From Odoribacter sp. (lineage in GTDB: Bacteria > Bacteroidota > Bacteroidia > Bacteroidales > Prolixibacteraceae), in contig PNOH01000041.1 of the NCBI GenBank assembly GCA_013824715.1, positions 1-37,715 of the forward strand: a stretch of DNA of 37,715 nt, in the 5' to 3' direction. How positions within the stretch are numbered: position 1 is the first letter of the stretch; each line of letters begins with the position of its first letter. A program made the translations under genes and the position numbers. The notes below the pieces were generated by a model. It saw nothing but the letters and a program-made list of their open reading frames with translations. It did not search any database and had not been told where the DNA came from. Positions 22,633 to 37,633 of this stretch are shown one piece after another.

Positions 22633-23532
22633 TTATGATCTTGGATGAAATTGATGCAATGTAGTTTTTAGATAATCCCTGTCCAGATGAGTATAAATCT
22701 CAGTGGTTAAAATTGATTCGTGACCCAACATTTCCTGAACCGCTCGTAAATCGGCCCCACCATTAATTAAATGGGATGCAAACGAGTGACGGAAAGTATG
22801 AGGACTAATCTTCTTTTCAAAACCAGCTTTAATTGCCAGATTTTTAATGATGGTGAAAATCATTACGCGGCTTAGCTTTTTACCTCTCCGGTTTAAGAAC
22901 AGGATATCTTCACTGTCTTTTGAAATTTTTAAAGTTTTACGATAAACATTTGTGTATTTATTGATTTCTTCAATAGCTTTTTCGCTAACCGGAACCAATC
23001 TTTCCTTATTCGATTTACCTTCAACTTTAATATATCCCTGATCAAATGACAAGTTTGAAATCTTGAGGTTTACCAGTTCAGAAACACGAAGACCACAGCT
23101 ATAGAGAGTTTCCAACATAGCTTTATTACGTTGTCCTTCAGCTTTACTGAGTTCAACAGTGTCAATCATCAGGTCAATTTCTTCAATAGTCAGAACATCC
23201 GGAAGTTTTCTGCCAATTTTGGGAGATTCCAACAGGGTTGTGGGATCATTGGTAACTTTGCCTTCCAGAAGCAAATACTTAAAGAACGACTTAATACCAG
23301 AGATTGTCCGGGCTTGAGTACGGGGTGAAACACCCTTGTCATTGATCCATTCAACAAATTTTTTCAAGTGAGCCAATTTCACTTTTTCAGGAGCCAGTTT
23401 CTTAAGTTCTTCATCCGAAAAAACCATCAGCTTGTTTATATCGTTGATATAAGCAGCGATTGAATTTGCCGACAAACCTTTTTCCAAACGTAAGAAAGAC
23501 TCAAATCCTTTTTTGCTATCTTCCCATTTCAT
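22633..23532 (-). CDS. xerD: Tyrosine recombinase XerD-like
   Basis: A 299-residue site-specific recombinase that resolves chromosome dimers at dif together with XerC. The N-terminal SAM-like core-binding domain spans about residues 1-90. The catalytic domain has the full set R149 (CGLRVSEL), K173 (EGKSNKERLVP), H245 and R248 (HTFRHSFASHL), H271 (LGHES) and the nucleophile Y280 (TEIYTHLD). The length is standard for XerC/XerD. It is divergent from aroQ-pyk, a neighbourhood usual in Bacteroidota, so it is the housekeeping enzyme and not the integrase of a mobile element. XerC/XerD assignment is by overall resemblance. Confidence 0.92.
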   Translation of the reverse strand: MKWEDSKKGFESFLRLEKGLSANSIAAYINDINKLMVFSDEELKKLAPEKVKLAHLKKFVEWINDKGVSPRTQARTISGIKSFFKYLLLEGKVTNDPTTLLESPKIGRKLPDVLTIEEIDLMIDTVELSKAEGQRNKAMLETLYSCGLRVSELVNLKISNLSFDQGYIKVEGKSNKERLVPVSEKAIEEINKYTNVYRKTLKISKDSEDILFLNRRGKKLSRVMIFTIIKNLAIKAGFEKKISPHTFRHSFASHLINGGADLRAVQEMLGHESILTTEIYTHLDRDYLKTTLHQFHPRS

Positions 23533-26022: not shown

Positions 26023-26096
26023 CGGGGTATAGCGCAGCTTGGTAGCGCGCGTCGTTCGGGACGACGAGGTCGTCGGTTCAAATCCGGCTACCCCGA
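26023..26096 (+). tRNA. tRNA-Pro (anticodon CGG)
   Basis: The complete cloverleaf is 74 nt: acceptor CGGGGTA/TACCCCG, D arm GCGC-AGCTTGGTA-GCGC, anticodon arm CGTCG-TTCGGGA-CGACG, variable loop AGGTC, T arm GTCGG-TTCAAAT-CCGGC and discriminator A. Anticodon positions 34-36 read CGG, which decodes CCG proline codons. The C1-G72 pair is typical of bacterial tRNA-Pro. The 3' CCA is not encoded (ACAAA follows), so it is added after transcription. Confidence 0.96.
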
Positions 26097-26206
26097 CAAA
26101 ATGAGAAATAAATTAGCGAGAGAGAGATAAGATTAAATCAGCCTTACAAATAAATAAGAAGACTGCAATTGATTGGCATCATAATAACTTTCATCCTTTC
26201 AGGAAG

Positions 26207-27707: not shown

Positions 27708-28274
27708 TTGAAATTATACATCAAATACATGGTCAGCAACCGTTGTAAAATAACGGTGAAAGAAGAGCTGAAAAAACTTGGGCTGCATTTTATCTTAGTT
27801 GATCTGGGTGAAATTGAGATTATGGAGAATCTTACAGCAGATCAGCGGGAGCAGGTTAAAACAGCATTACTCAACTGCGGCTTTGAATTGATGGATGACA
27901 AACGGGCCATATTGATTGAGCGGATAAAAAATACAATTGTTGAAATGGTTCATCATTCAAATGAAGTAATCAAAACGAACTTTTCAAACTATTTAAGTGA
28001 AAAATTAGACCACGATTATACCTACCTGGCCAATTTGTTTTCGGAAGTTCAGGGAACTACCATCGAGCAATTCATCATTTCTCATAAAATTGAGCGGATT
28101 AAAGAATTAATCATTTATGGCGAATTTAATATTACCGAAATTGCATGGAAGATGAATTACAGCAGTGTTGCGCATTTATCCAATCAATTTAAAAAAGTTA
28201 CAGGACTCTCGCCTACTCATTTTAAACAATTGAAGGAAAAAAGACGAAGCCCGATTGAAGAAATTGGAAATTAA
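27708..28274 (+). CDS. Short AraC-family regulator with an N-terminal HMA-like domain
   Basis: A 188-residue protein with a C-terminal AraC-type DNA-binding domain of two helix-turn-helix units (about residues 85-180: YTYLANLFSEVQGTTIEQFI, then ITEIAWKMNYSSVAHLSNQFKKVTGLSPTHFK). The first 75 residues have the beta-alpha-beta-beta-alpha-beta pattern of a heavy-metal-associated domain. The MxCxxC position reads MVSNRC, so one metal ligand would be missing. The start is TTG 27708; ATG 27729 would delete the first beta strand. It lies 19 nt upstream of the HAMP-array kinase and is probably co-transcribed with it, which suggests a shared regulatory circuit. Metal sensing is inference. Confidence 0.8.
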   Translation: MKLYIKYMVSNRCKITVKEELKKLGLHFILVDLGEIEIMENLTADQREQVKTALLNCGFELMDDKRAILIERIKNTIVEMVHHSNEVIKTNFSNYLSEKLDHDYTYLANLFSEVQGTTIEQFIISHKIERIKELIIYGEFNITEIAWKMNYSSVAHLSNQFKKVTGLSPTHFKQLKEKRRSPIEEIGN

Positions 28275-28293
28275 GTGCTATAAACCAAAGCAA

Positions 28294-31200
28294 ATGAAAA
28301 CAAAAGCGTTAAAGTCCAGTACAAACGGCATAAAACCAAAAACCGTGCACCCGAAAACTAACAGTGCAATGCCCAAAGTGGAGGAATCAATCCTTACAGA
28401 TGCAGAACTTCTAAAAATTCTCCTGAAGGTTAAAAATGGAAATTTTTCTCTCCGATTGCCTACGGATCAAAATGGAATAAAAAGATCAATTTGCGATACG
28501 TTGAATGAAATTATTGACCTTAATGAAAGAATGGTTTATGAATTTCAGAAAGTTGGGAAAAGTATCGGTAAACAAGGAAAGTTGACAAACAGGGTAGTAC
28601 TTGATGGCGCAAGGGGATCATGGAGTTCGTGCGTTGATTCAGTAAACACGCTTATCTCCGATTTGGTGCATCCAACAATTGAAATTGCACACGTTATTAC
28701 TTCTGTGGCTTACGGTAATCTTTCACAGGAGATGCCTTTATCCATTGAAGGAAACCCGTTGCAAGGCGAATTTTTAAGGATTGCAAAAGAGGTGAACGGA
28801 ATGGTGAAGCAATTGAATTCATTTTCAATGGAGGTAACCAGGGTGGCACTTGAAGTAGGTACCGAAGGTAAACTGGGTGGCCAGGCAAAAGTAAAAGGCG
28901 TGGCCGGTGTATGGAAAGATTTGACCGATAGTGTAAACAAAATGGCCAGTAACCTTACCGGACAGGTACGTAACATTGCCGATGTTACCACTGCGGTAGC
29001 GAAAGGCGACCTTTCTAAAAAAATTACTGCTGACGCCAAAGGAGAGATATTAGAGCTTAAAAATACGATCAATACCATGGTCGATCAGTTGAATTCATTT
29101 TCTTCGGAGGTAACCAGGGTGGCCCGTGAGGTTGGTACGGAAGGTAAATTGGGCGGACAAGCACAGGTTAAAGGAGTAGGGGGAACTTGGAAGGATTTAA
29201 CGGATAGTGTGAACAAGATGGCCAGTAACCTTACCGGACAAGTACGTAATATTGCCGATGTTACAACTGCAGTGGCGAATGGTGACCTTTCTAAAAAGAT
29301 TACTGCAGTTGCAGAAGGCGAAATTCTGGAATTGAAAAAAACCATCAATACCATGGTCGATCAGTTAAACTCTTTTGCTTCGGAGGTTACACGTGTGGCT
29401 CTTGAGGTAGGTACGGAAGGGAAACTGGGTGGCCAGGCAAAAGTAAAAGGCGTGGGCGGTACTTGGAAAGATTTAACGGATAGCGTAAATCAAATGGCAA
29501 GCAACCTAACCGGTCAGGTACGTAATATTGCAGAAGTTACCACTGCCGTGGCGAATGGCGACCTTTCACGACAAATTACCGTGGATACAAAAGGGGAGAT
29601 TTTGGAGTTGAAAAACACAATCAATACCATGGTGGGCCAATTAAACTCTTTTGCTTCGGAGGTTACAAGGGTGGCACGCGAGGTAGGTACTGAAGGCAAA
29701 CTTGGCGGCCAGGCACAAGTAAAAGGCGTTGATGGAATCTGGAAAGATTTAACCGATAGCGTAAATCAAATGGCCGGTAACCTTACCGGGCAGGTACGTA
29801 ATATTGCGGAAGTTACCACTGCGGTTGCAAAAGGTAACCTTTCACTGCAAATTACAGCTGACGCAAAAGGAGAAATTCTGGAATTAAAAAATACCATCAA
29901 TACAATGGTGGATCAGCTAAAAGGATTTGCATCTGAGGTAACACGTGTGGCGAAAGAGGTTGGAACAGAAGGGAAATTAGGCGGTCAGGCCGATGTGCCC
30001 GGCGTTGCAGGAACATGGAAAGACTTAACAGATTCTGTGAACCAGATGGCGGGCAACCTTACAGCTCAGGTGCGTAATATTGCCGATGTGGCTATTGCCG
30101 TGGCAAGTGGAGACATGTCGCGTAAAATTACAGTGGATGTACGCGGAGAATTTTTGCAACTGAAAGAAATATTGAATACGATGGTGGATCAGTTACGATC
30201 GTTTGCATCGGAAGTTACCCGCGTGGCGCGTGAGGTTGGTACGGAAGGAAAATTGGGAGGCCAGGCAAATGTGCCGGGCGTTGCAGGTACATGGAAAGAT
30301 TTAACAGACAGCGTAAACCAAATGGCAGGGAATCTTACCGCACAGATGAGAAATATTGCCGAAGTAACGATAGCAGTGGCAAATGGTGATATGTCTAAAA
30401 AAATCACCGTCGATGTTAGGGGGGAATTTTTACAGTTGAAAGAAACCATCAATACGATGGTCGATCAGTTGAGGGCATTTGCATCGGAGGTAACCCGTGT
30501 GGCGCGCGAGGTGGGTACCGAAGGAAAACTGGGAGGCCAGGCATTCGTGCCAGGAGTTGCGGGAACTTGGAAAGATCTGACGGATTCAGTAAATCAAATG
30601 GCAGGTAATCTTACTGCACAGGTCAGAAATATTGCAGAAGTAACCAATGCGGTAAAAAGTGGTGACCTTTCTAAACTGATTACGGTGGATGTAAAAGGAG
30701 AACTTTTGGATTTGAAAAATACCATCAATACGATGGTGTCGCAGTTGAATTCATTTGCATCGGAAGTAACCCGTGTGGCGCGTGAAGTGGGTACGGAAGG
30801 TAAACTGGGCGGACAGTCGCAGATAAAAGGTGTTGCCGGAATATGGAAAGACCTGACGGATAGTGTAAATGTTATGGCATCCAATTTAACCGGCCAGGTT
30901 CGTGGCATCGCAAAAGTTGTCACCTCAGTTGCTAAAGGAAATCTGAAACAGAAATTATACATTGATGCAAAAGGAGAGGTAGCTCAATTGGCAGATACGA
31001 TAAATGAGATGATCGATACACTGGCAACGTTTTCCGATCAGGTTACAACAGTGGCACGCGAAGTTGGCGCTGAAGGCAAATTGGGCGGACAGGCCAATGT
31101 GCCGGGAGCTTCGGGCACATGGAAGAACCTCACCGAAAATGTGAACCAACTGGCGGCCAATCTTACTACTCAGGTGCGTGCTATTTCTGAAGTTGCTTCG

Positions 31201-34104
31201 GCTGTAACAAAAGGCGACCTTACGCGAAGTATCCAGGTAGATGCAAAAGGCGAAGTAGAAGCATTAAAAGACACTATCAATCAGATGATCACAAATCTGA
31301 AAACCACTACCCAGAGAAGTCAGGAGCAGGATTGGCTTAAATCGAACCTTGCCAAATTTACGCAGATGCTTCAAGGACAGAAAGAATTAAATTCTGTTAC
31401 CACTAAAATTCTTTCGGAGCTCGCGCAGGTGGTCAATGCACAGCACGGATTATTTTATGTCCTGAATGAAGAAGAAAAACTGATGGAGTCTAAACTCGTA
31501 TTAGTTGCTTCTTATGCATTTAAAAAAAGAAAGAATGTTTCCGCGGAATTTGCCATGGGCGAAGGTTTAATAGGACAATGTGCAGTAGAAAAAGAACGTA
31601 TTTTGCTTACCAATGTTCCTGATAATTATATCAGGATAAGCTCGGGCCTGGGCGAAGCAATACCGCTCAATGTAATAGTTTTGCCTGTGCTTTTTGAAGG
31701 TCGGGTAAAAGCGGTAATTGAATTGGCATCTTTTGATATTTTTACACAAATCCATCAGAATTTTCTTGACGGATTAACTGAAAGTATTGGCATTACTTTA
31801 AATACCATTGAATCCAACTCTAGAACCGAAGAACTTCTTGTGCAATCTCAATCATTGGCCGGTGAACTTAAAAGTCAGCAGGAAGTATTGCGCAACACAA
31901 ATGAGGAACTGGAAGAAAAAGCGATCCTGTTGGCAAATCAAAAAGAAGAGGTGGAGAACAAGAACCAGGAAGTAGAAGAAGCAAGGAAAGCACTTGAAGA
32001 AAAAGCGGATCAATTGACTATTACCTCCAAATATAAATCGGAATTTTTGGCGAATATGTCGCACGAATTAAGAACCCCGCTTAACAGCTTGCAGATATTG
32101 GCCAATGAACTCATCTCCAATCGCGATGGAAATCTTACAGAAAAACAAATTCAGTTTGCTAAAACCATCAATGCCTGTGGGGATGATCTTATTCAGTTAA
32201 TTAACGACATTCTGGATTTATCGAAAATTGAATCCGGTTATATTTCAGTAGATTATACATCGATCAAATTTGGTGGGATCTGCAAATTCTTGGAATCGAC
32301 ATTCAATCATACAGCAAAGTCCAAACTCCTGAAATTCACTATAGAAATGGATGAACAACTCCCTGAATATATCGAAACGGATTCTCAACGGTTGAATCAA
32401 ATCCTTAAAAATTTATTGTCTAATTCATTTAAGTTTACAGAGAGGGGTCGGGTTAGTTTAAAAATATACAAAGCAAACAAAAACCTGCCTGCCGGACAGA
32501 CTGGCTGGAAAACAAAAAACATCAATTTGGACAGTGCCGAAACAGTAATCGGCTTCGAAATAACTGATACGGGAATTGGTATTTCACAAGATAAACAAAA
32601 CATCATATTCGAAGCGTTTCAACAAGCCGAAGGTTCAACCAGCCGAAAATACGGTGGTACGGGTTTAGGTTTATCTATCAGCCGTGGCCTTTCTGATTTA
32701 TTGGGTGGAACAATAGAGTTGGAAAGTGAATTGAATCAGGGAAGTAAGTTTACTTTGTTTTTGCCCCTTAAATTTATGCCTGATCAGCAAAATAAACCAG
32801 TGGAAGCCGAAGAAAGCCAACCTGCTTTAAAAAGCGATCTTAAATCCTCATTTTCATCCATTGTTCAGAAATTGGATATCGAAATGTTTTTTGCGGATGA
32901 AGCGGGCGACGACAGGACCAATATTAAACCGGATGATAAGGTGGTGCTAATAGTGGAAGATGATCTTACATTCGCTAAAATTTTGCTCGAAAAAGCACAC
33001 AAGAATGGAATTAAGGCTATTGTCACCAACAAAGGTAACAATGTGATAGATTTCATCAATCAATTTCATCCTGATGTCATCACTATGGATATTAAAATGC
33101 CCGATACCAGCGGGTGGAAAGTGTTGGATCGGCTCAAAACAGATTTTAATTTGCGGCATATCCCCGTTTATATAATATCAGGCGAAGACGATAGGAACAA
33201 GGGGCTAAAACGGGGAGCCCGAAACTTTTTGGTGAAACCCGTGAATAATGAATCCCTGAAAAATTTGTTTAACGACATTCATGATTTTTGCAATAAAAAA
33301 GTAAAAAACCTCTTGATTATAGATGATAACGAGTTTGAATTATTAATGGTTGTGAAAGCTATGGAGGGCAGCGATACTGAAATCGCCACTGCTAAAACAG
33401 TAAAAGAGGCTATTCATCTGATTAGAGAAAAAGCATTTGACTGTATCATCTTAGATTTAGTTTTGCCTGATGCAGATGGACTTGATATAATCAAAGAGCT
33501 GGAGAGTGACAAATCTGCGCAGGAAACTGCCTTGATTGTTTATTCGGCAAAAGACCTTAGTAAAAAAGAAAGATCAAGGCTAAATCAATTTGCTAACCGT
33601 CTCATTTTAAAAAGTGCCCATTCTTTAGATCAGTTAATAGATCAGGCGGCAATATTTCTGCACCGGGTTCATAAAGGGTTACCAGAAGAAATGAGAAGCC
33701 GGATAGAAAAATTTTACTTAAAAGAAGACGTGCTTAAAGGAAAAACAGTGTTGATAGTGGATGATGATGTGCGAAATTTGTTTGCATTAACTGCCGCACT
33801 CGAGCGTTTTGGGCTAAATATTATAAGTGCAGAAAGCGGACAAGAGGCTATTGGCATTTTGAAAAAAACAAAAAACATTGATATTGCTTTAATGGATATC
33901 ATGATGCCTGGGATGGACGGATATGAAACGATGCAAGATATTCGGGAAGTACTTAAAAATAAAGACTTAACAATCATTGCTGTCACTGCCAAAGCCATGA
34001 AAGGCGATCGGCAGAAATGCATTGATTCGGGAGCTTCCGATTATATTACAAAACCGGTGAATATTGATCAACTGTCATCCCTAATGCGTGTCTGGCTTAA
34101 ATAA
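28294..34104 (+). CDS. Hybrid histidine kinase with about 21 tandem HAMP domains, GAF, HisKA, HATPase and three receivers
   Basis: A 1936-residue protein with no membrane segment. In order: an Asn/Lys-rich N terminus, about 21 HAMP domains (residues 35-1005), a GAF domain (about 1030-1172), a coiled coil (1183-1246), HisKA with H1257 in SHELRTPLN, HATPase (N-box LLSNSFKFT about 1373, DTGIGIS, GTGLGLS), then receivers with phospho-acceptors D1599 (TMDIKMP), D1721 (ILDLVLP) and D1868 ([10 protein letters not shown]). Poly-HAMP hybrid kinases such as fungal Nik1 are soluble sensors of osmotic and other stress; what this one senses is unknown. It has no HPt domain, but the next gene has one. ATG 28294 was chosen over TTG 28255, which overlaps the AraC gene. 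Confidence 0.93.
28837..31320 (+). repeat. Nine tandem 276-bp units encoding HAMP-domain pairs
   Basis: Nine consecutive units of exactly 276 bp (92 codons) run without any insertion or deletion. Each encodes two HAMP modules: one with [11 protein letters not shown] and WKDLTDSVN, and one with GDLSKKI and LKNTINTMV. Units 1-4 carry KVKGV and GNLTGQV. Units 5-7 carry [10 protein letters not shown] and GNLTAQ. Units 8 and 9 are more divergent. Synonymous sites vary between units, so the protein sequence is conserved more than the DNA. Another three degenerate modules precede them (from about 28400). Confidence 0.93.
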
Positions 34105-34105
34105 T

Positions 34106-34195
34106 ATGAATATTGACCAACTTATTAAATTATTATTGGTTGATGAAAGAGAAGAAACTTTGACAATATTTTTTATTGAAAATGAAAGCAAATAG
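34106..34195 (+). pseudogene. 29-codon remnant of a receiver-domain N terminus
   Basis: An ATG one base after the stop codon of the HAMP-array kinase opens a 29-codon frame whose start, MNIDQLIKLLLVDEREETL, parallels the N terminus of the next protein (MKANSLIKILLVDDRAENLF): LIK-LLLVD and a charged pair align without gaps. After about 19 residues the similarity stops and the frame ends at 34195, overlapping the next start codon. It appears to be the stub of a duplicated receiver gene, or it may still be translated as a leader coupling the two large genes. Confidence 0.6.
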
Positions 34196-37100
34196 CCTTA
34201 TTAAAATCTTATTGGTAGACGACCGGGCAGAAAATTTGTTTGCCTTGGAAGTAATTCTTTCCGACAAGCATTATTTATGTGTGAAAGCAAGTTCGGGCAA
34301 GGAAGCATTAAAAATTCTTCTCCGCGAACAAGACTTTGCCGTTATATTAATGGACGTACAAATGCCCATAATGGATGGATTTGAAACCGTAGAATTAATT
34401 CGCCAAAGCGAAAAACTTAAGCATGTTCCGATTATTTTTTTAACTGCAAACATGAATACTCCTGAATATATTTTCAAAGGGTATCAGGCTGGTGCAGTTG
34501 ACTATATGATTAAACCACTTTCGTCGGAAATATTAAAGGCAAAAGTGGCGGTTTTTGTGGATTTGTATAAGAAAACAAATGAATTAATAGTTCAACATGA
34601 AGAGAAGGGAAAACGGGCCGCTGAACTAATCATTGCTAACAAGGAACTTGTATTCCAGAACGAAGAGAAGGAAAAGCGGTCAGATGAATTGGTCATTGCC
34701 AACAAAGAACTTGCCTTCCAGAACGACGAAAAGGAGAAGCGGGCCGAAGAGTTAATCCTTGCCAACAATGAACTTGCTTTTCAGAATGACGAAAAGGAAA
34801 AAAGGGCCGACGAGTTAAGCATTGCCAACAAGGAACTTGCTTTTCAGAACGAAGAAAAGGAAAAGCGGGCCGATGAGTTAATCCTCGCCAACAAAGAACT
34901 TCTCTTTCAAAACGAAGAAAAAGAAAAACGGGCAGCAGAGTTAATCATTGCAAACAAAGAATTACTGTTTCAGAACGAGGAGAAAGAAAAACGGGCGGCA
35001 GAATTAATCATAGCCAACAAGGAACTTGCTTTTCAGAACGAAGAAAAGGAAAAGCGGGCCGAAGAGTTAATCCTCGCGAACAAAGAACTTGTTTTTCAGA
35101 CCGGAGAGAAAGAAAAGCGGGCGGCAGAATTGGCTATCGCTGACAAAGAGCTTGACTACCAAAATGAGGAGAAAGAAAGACGATCAGTTGCCAATAAAAA
35201 ATTGGAAGCATCCAGCTATTCCTTAAAATTAGCTTCCCAGTATTCGCTCAGTTTGATTGAAGCGAGCCGTGACCCATTGGTGGTGATAAGCCCTGAAGGC
35301 AAAATTACCGACATGAATGAGGCATTGGTGAACATCACCGGAGTATTGCGCGAAGAACTGAAAGACACCGACTTCCTCTATTATTTTACCGAACCTCAAA
35401 AAGCACGACAGGTTTATCAGGAAGTGTTCGCCAAAGGATCGGCTGCCGATTCGCCGCTTACTATTCGCCATGCCGACGGTAAACTGACTGATGTATTGTT
35501 TAACGGATCGGTTTACAAAGACGACAGCGGAAACGTGTTGGGCGTTGTGATTGTTGCCCGCGATGTGACTGACCAAAAACGGATTGCAACTGAATTGAAT
35601 GAAGCTATTGTGTTTGCCGAAATGGCTGTTGATATTGCAGAAGAGGCCAAAGCAAAAGCTGAAAGCGCCACTTTGACTGCCGAAAACGCGGTAAAAGCCA
35701 AACAGCAGTTTTTGTCGAACATGAGCCATGAAATCCGCACCCCAATGAACGCGATTATCGGATTCACCAAAGTACTTCTAAAGACTGAGTTATCAGCCAG
35801 ACAAAAAGAATATCTGCTTGCCATAAAATTGAGCGGCGATGCATTGATTGTACTCATCAACGACATACTCGATCTGGCAAAAGTCGATGCCGGGAAAATG
35901 ACATTCGAACAAACCCCTTTCAAAATGTCGGCTTCTATTTCGGCCATGGTTCATCTGTTCGAAACAAAAATTCAGGAAAAGAATTTAAAGTTAGTGAAGG
36001 AATACGATAAAAATATTCCTGAAGTTTTGGTTGGCGACCCGGTAAGGTTGCACCAGATTATTTTAAACCTGGTGAGCAACGCGGTAAAATTTACGACCAA
36101 AGGAAAAATTACCGTTAGTGTAAATTTGCTGAGCGAAGATGAGAAGAAAGCGACCATCCGGTTCTCTGTTTCAGATACCGGGATCGGAATACCAGAAAGT
36201 AAAATCGGAAAGATATTTGAGAACTTTCAGCAGGCATCGAGCGTCACTTCACGCTTATATGGTGGAACCGGACTTGGACTGGCCATCGTTAAACAATTGA
36301 TTGAACCACAGGGAGGAACCATCAGTGTAACGAGTAAAGTTGACGAAGGATCAACATTCAGCTTCGTGTTAAGTTTTCTGAAAACCAGTGCGGATGCCGA
36401 TTTAGAATCAGAAATCCTCGAATTGGACCGCGACATTAAAACCCTAAAGGTTTTGGTTGTTGAAGACATCGTCCTCAATCAGTTACTGATGAAAACCTTG
36501 CTCGATGATTTCGGGTTTGAACGCGATATTGCCGATAATGGAATAATTGCCATCGAAAAACTGCGGCTAAAAGCTTATGATGTTATTTTGATGGACTTAC
36601 AGATGCCCGAGATGAATGGGTTTGAAGCTACAGATTACATCCGCAACATCATGAATTTGAAAATCCCGATCATCGCTTTAACGGCCGATGTAACTACCGT
36701 TGATTTAGCCAAATGTAAAGCGGTTGGCATGAACGATTACATCGCCAAGCCTGTTGATGAGCGCGTATTGTACAGCAAAATAATTGGCCTGGTTAAGCGA
36801 AATTCAGGGCAGGAAATCATTGTCAAAGAAGAAATTATTAAGGAAAAATGTATTGACCTGGACTATTTAAACCACCGTACCAAATCGCATCCTAAGTTAA
36901 TGATGGAAATGATTGCAGCTTACCTGGAACAAACCCCGCCATTAGTTTCAGCCATGAAACAGAGCCTGATCGACAAAGACTGGGACCTGTTGTATGCTTC
37001 GGTACACAAAATGATCCCTTCGTTTTCGATCATGGGCATCAGTATTGATTTCGAAAACATGGCCAAAAAAGTTCAGGAATATGCATTGAACCAAAAACAG

Positions 37101-37205
37101 GCTGAAGGAATACCCAACATGGTACTTCAACTTGATAAAATATGTTCGCAGGCATGCACCGAATTAGAAGAAGAGTTTAACCGGATTAAAAGTACGAACC
37201 AATGA
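34182..37205 (+). CDS. Hybrid histidine kinase: REC, coiled-coil repeats, PAS, HisKA, HATPase, REC, HPt
   Basis: A 1007-residue soluble protein. In order: a receiver (D13-D14, D58 in LMDVQMP, K111), a coiled coil made of nine 21-residue repeats (140-328), a PAS domain with PAC motif (about 350-475, IEASRDPLVVISPEGKITDMN to VIVARDVTDQKR), a short helix, HisKA with H516 in SHEIRTPMN, HATPase (NLVSNAVKFT about 630, DTGIGIP about 666, GGTGLGL about 694), a second receiver with D805 (MDLQMPEMNG) and a C-terminal HPt domain with H942 in SVHKMIPSF. It thus contains every step of a phosphorelay, and its HPt could serve the neighbouring HPt-less kinase. ATG 34182 was chosen over TTG 34176. It overlaps the downstream response-regulator gene by 4 nt. 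Confidence 0.94.
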   Translation: MKANSLIKILLVDDRAENLFALEVILSDKHYLCVKASSGKEALKILLREQDFAVILMDVQMPIMDGFETVELIRQSEKLKHVPIIFLTANMNTPEYIFKGYQAGAVDYMIKPLSSEILKAKVAVFVDLYKKTNELIVQHEEKGKRAAELIIANKELVFQNEEKEKRSDELVIANKELAFQNDEKEKRAEELILANNELAFQNDEKEKRADELSIANKELAFQNEEKEKRADELILANKELLFQNEEKEKRAAELIIANKELLFQNEEKEKRAAELIIANKELAFQNEEKEKRAEELILANKELVFQTGEKEKRAAELAIADKELDYQNEEKERRSVANKKLEASSYSLKLASQYSLSLIEASRDPLVVISPEGKITDMNEALVNITGVLREELKDTDFLYYFTEPQKARQVYQEVFAKGSAADSPLTIRHADGKLTDVLFNGSVYKDDSGNVLGVVIVARDVTDQKRIATELNEAIVFAEMAVDIAEEAKAKAESATLTAENAVKAKQQFLSNMSHEIRTPMNAIIGFTKVLLKTELSARQKEYLLAIKLSGDALIVLINDILDLAKVDAGKMTFEQTPFKMSASISAMVHLFETKIQEKNLKLVKEYDKNIPEVLVGDPVRLHQIILNLVSNAVKFTTKGKITVSVNLLSEDEKKATIRFSVSDTGIGIPESKIGKIFENFQQASSVTSRLYGGTGLGLAIVKQLIEPQGGTISVTSKVDEGSTFSFVLSFLKTSADADLESEILELDRDIKTLKVLVVEDIVLNQLLMKTLLDDFGFERDIADNGIIAIEKLRLKAYDVILMDLQMPEMNGFEATDYIRNIMNLKIPIIALTADVTTVDLAKCKAVGMNDYIAKPVDERVLYSKIIGLVKRNSGQEIIVKEEIIKEKCIDLDYLNHRTKSHPKLMMEMIAAYLEQTPPLVSAMKQSLIDKDWDLLYASVHKMIPSFSIMGISIDFENMAKKVQEYALNQKQAEGIPNMVLQLDKICSQACTELEEEFNRIKSTNQ
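34599..35165 (+). repeat. Nine tandem 63-bp repeats encoding a 21-residue coiled-coil unit
   Basis: Nine in-frame units of exactly 63 bp encode variants of EEKEKRAAELIIANKELAFQN; a partial tenth follows. Twenty-one residues equal three heptads, so the block would form one continuous parallel coiled coil between the receiver and PAS domains. DNA identity between units is high, which makes unequal recombination and changes in copy number likely. Confidence 0.93.
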
Positions 37206-37633
37206 GCAACGATAAGATTAAAATATTTTTAGTGGATGACGATTCTGTGTATTTAAAATTACTTGAAATAGAATTCCTTCAGCATGGCGATTTCGAGATT
37301 GAAACTTATGCCACGGGCGAGCTGTGTGTTGAAAACCTGAAACATGCCCCGGATGTAATTGTATTGGATTATTACCTCGATGGCATCGATAAATCAGCGA
37401 TGAACGGAATTGAAACACTGGATAAAATAAAGGCCATCAATCCTGATATTTCGGTGATCATGCTTTCTTCGCAGGATAGTATCGACATTGCCATAGACTG
37501 TATGCACCACAGGGCATTCGACTATGTCATGAAAAGCGAAACAGCCTTCCTGCGGCTCAAAAAAATCATATCCCGCATTTTTAGCTACAAAAGAATGGAA
37601 AAGCAATTGAACTGGTATATGGAGAGGATGTGA
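37202..37633 (+). CDS. Single-domain response regulator
   Basis: A 143-residue CheY-like receiver with acidic residues D12-D14, phospho-acceptor D56 in VIVLDYYLD, the switch serine in IMLSSQDS (S89/S90) and K111 in FDYVMKSE. After the receiver there is only a basic amphipathic tail (SRIFSYKRMEKQLNWYMERM), with no DNA-binding or enzymatic domain. It overlaps the end of the hybrid kinase by ATGA and is therefore translationally coupled to it. It is a natural acceptor for the kinase's HPt domain. The output would have to be a protein-protein interaction or a later step encoded elsewhere. Confidence 0.93.
   Translation: MSNDKIKIFLVDDDSVYLKLLEIEFLQHGDFEIETYATGELCVENLKHAPDVIVLDYYLDGIDKSAMNGIETLDKIKAINPDISVIMLSSQDSIDIAIDCMHHRAFDYVMKSETAFLRLKKIISRIFSYKRMEKQLNWYMERM

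Follow-up and report, generated by a model that had tools for sequence, protein, structure and literature searches.

Family-wide register of a poly-HAMP array in a predicted soluble hybrid histidine kinase from Odoribacter sp., and its receiver-headed neighbor

Soluble kinases with long series of HAMP modules have been described in fungi and in Myxococcus xanthus. Among the fungal members, CaNik1p has nine HAMPs arranged in 92-residue pairs (PMC3848655), and PMC3848655, PMC5159414, and PMC6433957 report that members are deregulated when HAMPs are deleted or altered. For M. xanthus, PMC7643160 describes AskC as encoded immediately downstream of askB and as interacting with both AskA and AskB, with REC3 (a receiver) of AskA binding the AskC receiver in a two-hybrid test. 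Here, we analyze a 37,715-nucleotide stretch of DNA (“the window”) from Odoribacter sp. (GenBank assembly GCA_013824715.1, contig PNOH01000041.1), which encodes a poly-HAMP hybrid histidine kinase and, directly downstream, a second hybrid kinase. We assign the former to the bacterial poly-HAMP (group III/Nik1-like, AskA/AskB-like) soluble hybrid histidine kinases. Our best overall reading, to which we give a probability of about 0.8, is that its array is a phase-locked relay rod with specialized ends, which controls the kinase and signals together with the partner kinase.

The kinase reading frame is open throughout and encodes 1,949 residues counted from a TTG codon at 28255. The in-frame ATG at 28294, residue 14 of the TTG-started frame, is the more likely start. 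The gene is organized as follows.

28255 to 34104, forward strand: poly-HAMP hybrid histidine kinase gene (open reading frame, domains, orthologs)
28294 to 28395, forward: variable tail at the N terminus (residues 14-47; identity to orthologs is low, with small indels)
28396 to 28641, forward: degenerate N-terminal HAMP modules, A-type at about residues 48-95 (by eye) and B-type at about 96-129 (own profiles; covered by the solved homolog 9trk)
28642 to 28932, forward: N-terminal cap unit, first of the repeats and 97 residues long, its connector being longer (own profiles, spacing, module matching)
28933 to 31140, forward: residues 227-962, eight full HAMP-pair units of 92 residues each, in the order A-B (Tandem Repeats Finder, own profiles)
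31141 to 31299, forward: last A-type HAMP module, residues 963-1015, towards the GAF domain (own profiles)
31381 to 31800, forward: GAF domain, residues 1043-1182 (PF13185, E = 2.2e-16)
32035 to 32772, forward: HisKA and HATPase_c, residues 1261-1506 (Pfam)
32926 to 34080, forward: three receiver domains, about residues 1558-1942 (three stretches of PF00072)

His1270, in the motif SHELRTP, is the expected phospho-accepting residue. Hydropathy was the sole test for the absence of a transmembrane segment; since no 19-residue mean exceeds 1.61 (the highest lies in the GAF region), the kinase is predicted to be soluble. The features common with group III kinases are present, namely, 92-residue HAMP-pair repeats before the kinase, HisKA, HATPase_c, and receivers, and no transmembrane segment by hydropathy; control of the HOG pathway and of the response to fungicides is a trait of the fungal members. 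Domains and hydropathy thus agree with an earlier interpretation made from the letters of the DNA (hereafter, the sequence-only reading), which described a soluble hybrid kinase with a Nik1-like poly-HAMP array and no transmembrane segment.

The array itself can be counted in several ways. When the protein is laid out at a 92-residue step, its units line up in columns, and Tandem Repeats Finder reports a period of 276 with 7.5 copies and 0% indels at 28801 to 30869 (score 1765). Profiles built from the window’s own A and B modules give 20 matches in strict B-A alternation over residues 96-1015, neighboring matches overlapping by up to nine junction residues by construction. The degenerate A-type module at about residues 48-95, recognized by eye and scoring as a 25th match in some orthologs, brings the total to 21, in line with the “about 21” of the sequence-only reading. 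This number depends on taking the B module as HAMP-like, which is consistent with the solved homolog 9trk spanning A and B modules. Pfam finds HAMP (PF00672) in nine stretches of the kinase and HAMP_2 (PF18947) in ten, the latter all in the A phase and, after the first, 276 bases apart consecutively. A HAMP-profile check proposed in the sequence-only reading therefore comes out in part: every unit has Pfam matches, but in just one of its two modules. Elsewhere in the window’s genome, no other HAMP_2 place was found at E = 0.001.

The eight full units are mutually 52-92% identical in protein and 56-82% in DNA, and the repeats are therefore old, with no recent slip. A tandem repeat within a draft contig could in principle be an artefact of assembly or recent duplication, but the units differ from one another by 18-44% in DNA, and several plasmid records give a single unbroken match with no difference in length (997 residues on 2,991 bases; in Azospirillum thermophilum, at 77%). 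Such an artefact is therefore already contradicted, and we consider its probability negligible.

To place the register in context, we searched genome contigs with 157 N-terminal residues and kept the best 80 of 202 relatives, all Bacteroidota by title and mostly Flavobacterium; 67 of these have an open frame of at least 1,800 residues and form our ortholog set. In the window, the spacing is 97 residues once, in the first unit, and then 92 eight times. Pooling the window with those orthologs that have at least eight matches of the given module type, 704 of 775 A-A spacings and 705 of 774 B-B spacings are exactly 92, and the remainder are 97. Of nine further open segments, seven show 97 and then 92, the Streptomyces segment shows 103 and then 92, a fragment beginning at its own contig’s start (L093) shows 92 only, and any 97 (or 103) is the first step. 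Past residue 51, when the window is globally aligned with the 67 orthologs, every indel in the array is a whole number of units (92, 184, 276, or -92 residues; the aligner broke three of them into two pieces adding up to whole units). Before that point, at residues 44-51 and thus near where the first module begins, there are short indels of 1-7 residues. Across the same orthologs, 205 indels fall in the C-terminal half; as the orthologs are mutually related, indel counts are not independent events. Spacings and alignments establish, at the level of sequence, that the 97-then-92 register and copy-number change by whole units only are family-wide. The strict register that had been claimed for the window thus holds after one 97-residue step, and the argument built on it is strengthened by its extension over 67 orthologs and other phyla. 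These data also bear on whether the array acts chiefly as a spacer or scaffold, keeping the kinase at a distance from a partner assembly or attached to it, without conformational relay. Interior modules that are interchangeable across phyla and variable in copy number would suit such a role, but a mere spacer would tolerate small indels, and none occurs past residue 51 against the 67 orthologs; we therefore regard it as distinctly improbable.

Each window module was then matched by gapped alignment to the modules of ten relatives. The first, next-to-last, and last A modules find the counterpart at the same end position in nine of the ten; for example, the last A module is 75% identical to its Deinococcus counterpart and at most 57% to any other module. 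The last B module keeps its position in eight (exceptions, Novosphingobium and Streptomyces), the position of the first B module is clear only in the five highest-identity relatives (L009, L064, L070, L073, and L095), and the next-to-last B module has no positional match outside Bacteroidota among the ten. Interior A modules follow strict order in L009 and L064 and match scattered positions in other Bacteroidota and other phyla. Profile scores are also lower at the ends, with 22.8 for the first A module, 93-94 for the last two, and 101-110 inside, and with 15.9 and 75.2 for the end B modules and 108-113 inside. Thus, recombination of whole units seems to replace interior modules over time, whereas those at the ends are retained.

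Counted by the same method (window, 20 modules), the 67 orthologs have 26 modules in 3 cases, 25 in 4, 24 in 52, 23 in 2, 22 in 1, 20 in 4, and 17 in 1, odd counts arising because the degenerate first modules score in some and not in others. As such, 62 have more modules than the window, 4 the same number, and 1 fewer, and the window array is two units shorter than the usual Flavobacterium form; A-module matching to L009 and L064 puts the missing length at units 3-4. Elsewhere, we count 20 modules in Azospirillum, Novosphingobium, and Mesorhizobium, 23 in Sinorhizobium, 22 in Streptomyces, and 14 in Deinococcus. The first 1,048 kinase residues match 184 plasmid records, 147 of them over at least 80%. 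Among sampled genomes, relatives occur in 3 of 100 from the window’s family (E = 1e-3) and 4 of 148 from the phylum (E = 1e-20), the window’s own genome being among the matches listed in both. In length, the kinase is an ordinary representative of its family, which is already known, is widespread, and includes many members with longer arrays. The sequence-only reading had called its HAMP number extreme against a Nik1-type range of five to nine; the range fits fungi, but bacterial relatives reach 14-26, and the claim of an extreme case falls.

The array is also the better conserved part of the protein, with a mean identity of 91.4% across the 67 orthologs versus 71.5% for the C-terminal half. 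Within array windows, fourfold-site identity is 21-49% in five comparisons, near saturation, and conservation of the array protein in the face of such near-saturated synonymous sites probably reflects selection on it. Because fourfold sites are near saturation, we reject a recent horizontal transfer from Flavobacterium, an idea based on 95% N-terminal identity to that genus and 40-47% to the two other matching genomes of the window’s family. Trees of the N- and C-terminal parts (window plus 25 of the 80 loci) both place the kinase near Flavobacterium, and an older transfer of the gene may have occurred. The two trees give no support to a mosaic gene, although L064 groups differently between them.

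Structural comparison is most direct for the N-terminal part, where PDB entry 9trk matches kinase residues 44-327 without gaps over 284 residues (E = 5.7e-120). The A-module profile also matches Aer2 (3vol, E = 3e-7), and the B-module profile gives clear scores for 9trk and 9trj. Its other matches are to four chains and span 12-13 residues; a designed protein is among these chains (E = 6e-7, with no single stretch passing alone). Low-confidence models contain helices of about 31-39 residues starting every 43-49 residues, which agrees weakly with the pattern that fused AS2-AS1 helices should give. A fold search with the better of these models gave no match at E ≤ 0.001; its top hit, rank 1 of 174, was the Aer2 poly-HAMP structure 4i3m (probability 0.98, E = 0.2), a likeness that is only suggestive.

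The second kinase gene begins 71 bases downstream of the first, on the same strand, and encodes 1,009 residues.

34176 to 37205, forward: partner kinase with a receiver, nine 21-residue coiled-coil-like repeats, PAS, HisKA, HATPase_c, a receiver, and a histidine phosphotransfer (HPt)-like tail (Pfam, repeats)
34599 to 35122, forward: nine 21-residue (63-base) coiled-coil-like repeats, between the first receiver and PAS (repeat search)

The HPt-like identity of the tail is our own reading: its alignment to the ArcB model extends as far as position 762 of 779, and Pfam lists no Hpt match. The Flavobacterium partner read for this feature (L009) lacks the 21-residue repeat array.

Of the 72 loci with downstream open reading frames, 66 have a co-directional, receiver-headed gene downstream by BLAST: 65 of the 70 from Bacteroidota and one of the two from plasmids. 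The gap is at most 33 bases in 60 loci and 104-435 bases in four, and in two the gene lies 3.5 and 4.9 kb away, after a broken array frame. No such gene was scored at L061, L068, L069, L073, L086, and L095, the last being an Azospirillum locus whose own record nonetheless annotates an adjoining response regulator. The partner proteins that were read continue into a kinase region beyond the receiver, and the Mesorhizobium and Sinorhizobium records have a response regulator gene annotated downstream (annotation only); the Streptomyces record is unannotated. We conclude that a co-directional, receiver-headed kinase gene adjoins the poly-HAMP kinase in most Bacteroidota relatives tested. We found no description of this gene pair outside Myxococcus in the literature searched, from which many subscription papers were absent.

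Two further genes flank the pair.

27708 to 28274, forward: AraC-type helix-turn-helix (HTH) gene, directly upstream of the kinase (Pfam)
37202 to 37633, forward: single-domain response regulator, sharing 4 bases with the partner gene (PF00072, E = 6.1e-17)

The AraC-type gene was rejected as a conserved partner, since just one of the 80 orthologous loci has a match of at least half its length. Further genes upstream of the kinase are a phage-type tyrosine integrase gene (22633-23532, reverse strand) and a tRNA-Pro (cgg) gene (26023-26097), and another REC-HisKA-HATPase_c gene, at 783-2048, has just generic kinase similarity to the partner kinases. In Azospirillum (L095) and Novosphingobium (L096), the kinase pair is followed by one small hypothetical gene and then by DUF5985 genes.

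Two chains would form a parallel HAMP rod, roughly 50 nm long if a module adds about 2.5 nm. A helix-rotation or two-state signal could start at the N-terminal cap, or at a bound partner, and travel along fused AS2-AS1 helices, through the GAF domain and a signaling helix, to the kinase. Phase would have to be kept, and we propose that this is why only whole units are gained or lost. Output would run via the three receivers and through complex formation with the receiver-headed partner, as for AskA/AskB with AskC, and the array would regulate the kinase/phosphatase balance by analogy with fungal Nik1. The dimeric rod, the two-state relay, kinase control, and receiver-mediated partner contact are inferences drawn from the literature on Nik1, Ask, and Aer2 proteins.

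Alternatively, as raised in the sequence-only reading, the array itself might be the sensor. It would respond along its length to conditions in the cytoplasm, such as osmolarity, crowding, a metabolite, or thiol stress, its unit number tuning threshold or gain. This would fit the lack of a transmembrane segment by hydropathy, the better conservation of the array than of the catalytic half, and the fungal drug-resistance mutations, which lie mostly in HAMPs, together with the HAMP cysteine that matters in Drk1 (PMC6433957). However, interior modules lose positional identity across phyla and matches vary from 17 to 26 among the 67 orthologs, a pattern more in keeping with a relay than with a specific sensor; the GAF domain between array and kinase and the partner kinase provide other inputs; and, in PMC7643160, ambruticin was bound, weakly, by AskC and not by AskA or AskB. 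We consider the sensor explanation unlikely. DNA binding by the array is far less probable still. It has been suggested for AskA/AskB, where putative partial HTH matches were reported and AskB bound promoter DNA in vitro (PMC7643160), and in our kinase, two Pfam families, SpoIIID and HTH_6, give whole-protein scores, that of SpoIIID exceeding its cutoff (array region, 28255-31300). Yet no single stretch passes for either family, and the best ones (residues 211-246 and 270-297) straddle A/B module junctions, so these scores look like repeat sums; the partial matches in AskA/AskB may be artefacts of the same kind.

Several observations weigh against the relay-rod reading. Pfam matches one module type only and does not report the B module as HAMP, and profile-profile alignment of B with A (hhalign) covered just the nine junction residues that both alignments share. 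Both AlphaFold2 single-chain models are poor (mean predicted local distance difference test score, 52.6 and 41.7), of too low a quality to reveal dimeric four-helix bundles. The Streptomyces relative lacks retained end modules. The Deinococcus locus is adjoined by other genes (CheR-type, then an ATP-binding protein), and partner architecture varies, from about 410 residues in Flavobacterium to 1,009 here. Finally, fungal deletion phenotypes are mixed, with a constitutive kinase in some reports and Hog1 activation in CaNik1p.

For the question of how serial HAMPs transmit a signal, the family provides natural length variants, from 14 to 26 modules by the same count, at fixed phase; its end modules keep their identity while the middle turns over, and its partner kinase is conserved, making relay, sensor, and spacer models testable. 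The window kinase is a good example of this family and no length record. New here are the family-wide register, the end-module identity, and the conserved receiver-headed kinase neighbor in Bacteroidota. A broader proposal, that the two kinases form a conserved two-gene module in at least two phyla whose unit number is tuned by whole-unit recombination, adding or removing units while leaving the relay intact, to set signaling range or gain, with specialized ends and an interchangeable, phase-locked interior, is tentative and on balance doubtful.

Compared with known systems, the solved fragments 9trj and 9trk (“histidine kinase, Gcn4p”) correspond by sequence match to the N-terminal cap and first units of a close homolog and differ in being fused to GCN4. 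Aer2 chemoreceptors share concatenated HAMPs and the A-module match to 3vol, whereas their output is that of a chemoreceptor and the solved Pseudomonas Aer2 chain has three HAMPs (PMC3570549); the Vibrio Aer2 model matched ten stretches of our kinase, far under cutoff (271 of 1,200 bits). The best-described relatives are the fungal group III (Nik1-type) kinases and Myxococcus AskA/AskB. The former (CaNik1p, DhNik1, Bos1, and Drk1) share the absence of a transmembrane segment, the HisKA/HATPase/receiver order, and, in CaNik1p, the 92-residue HAMP pairs. They differ in having fewer HAMPs (5-7 repeats, PMC5159414; nine in CaNik1p, PMC3848655) and a C-terminal half of histidine kinase, ATPase, and one response regulator domain (PMC5159414), where the window kinase has a GAF domain and three receivers. 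M. xanthus AskA/AskB and Sorangium Amb07 are, like our kinase, soluble bacterial group III-type proteins with extended poly-HAMP arrays and several receivers; in those systems, ambruticin and glycerol are known inducers. The AskB-AskC arrangement, by description rather than by sequence, resembles ours in having a second hybrid kinase gene directly downstream on the same strand (PMC7643160).

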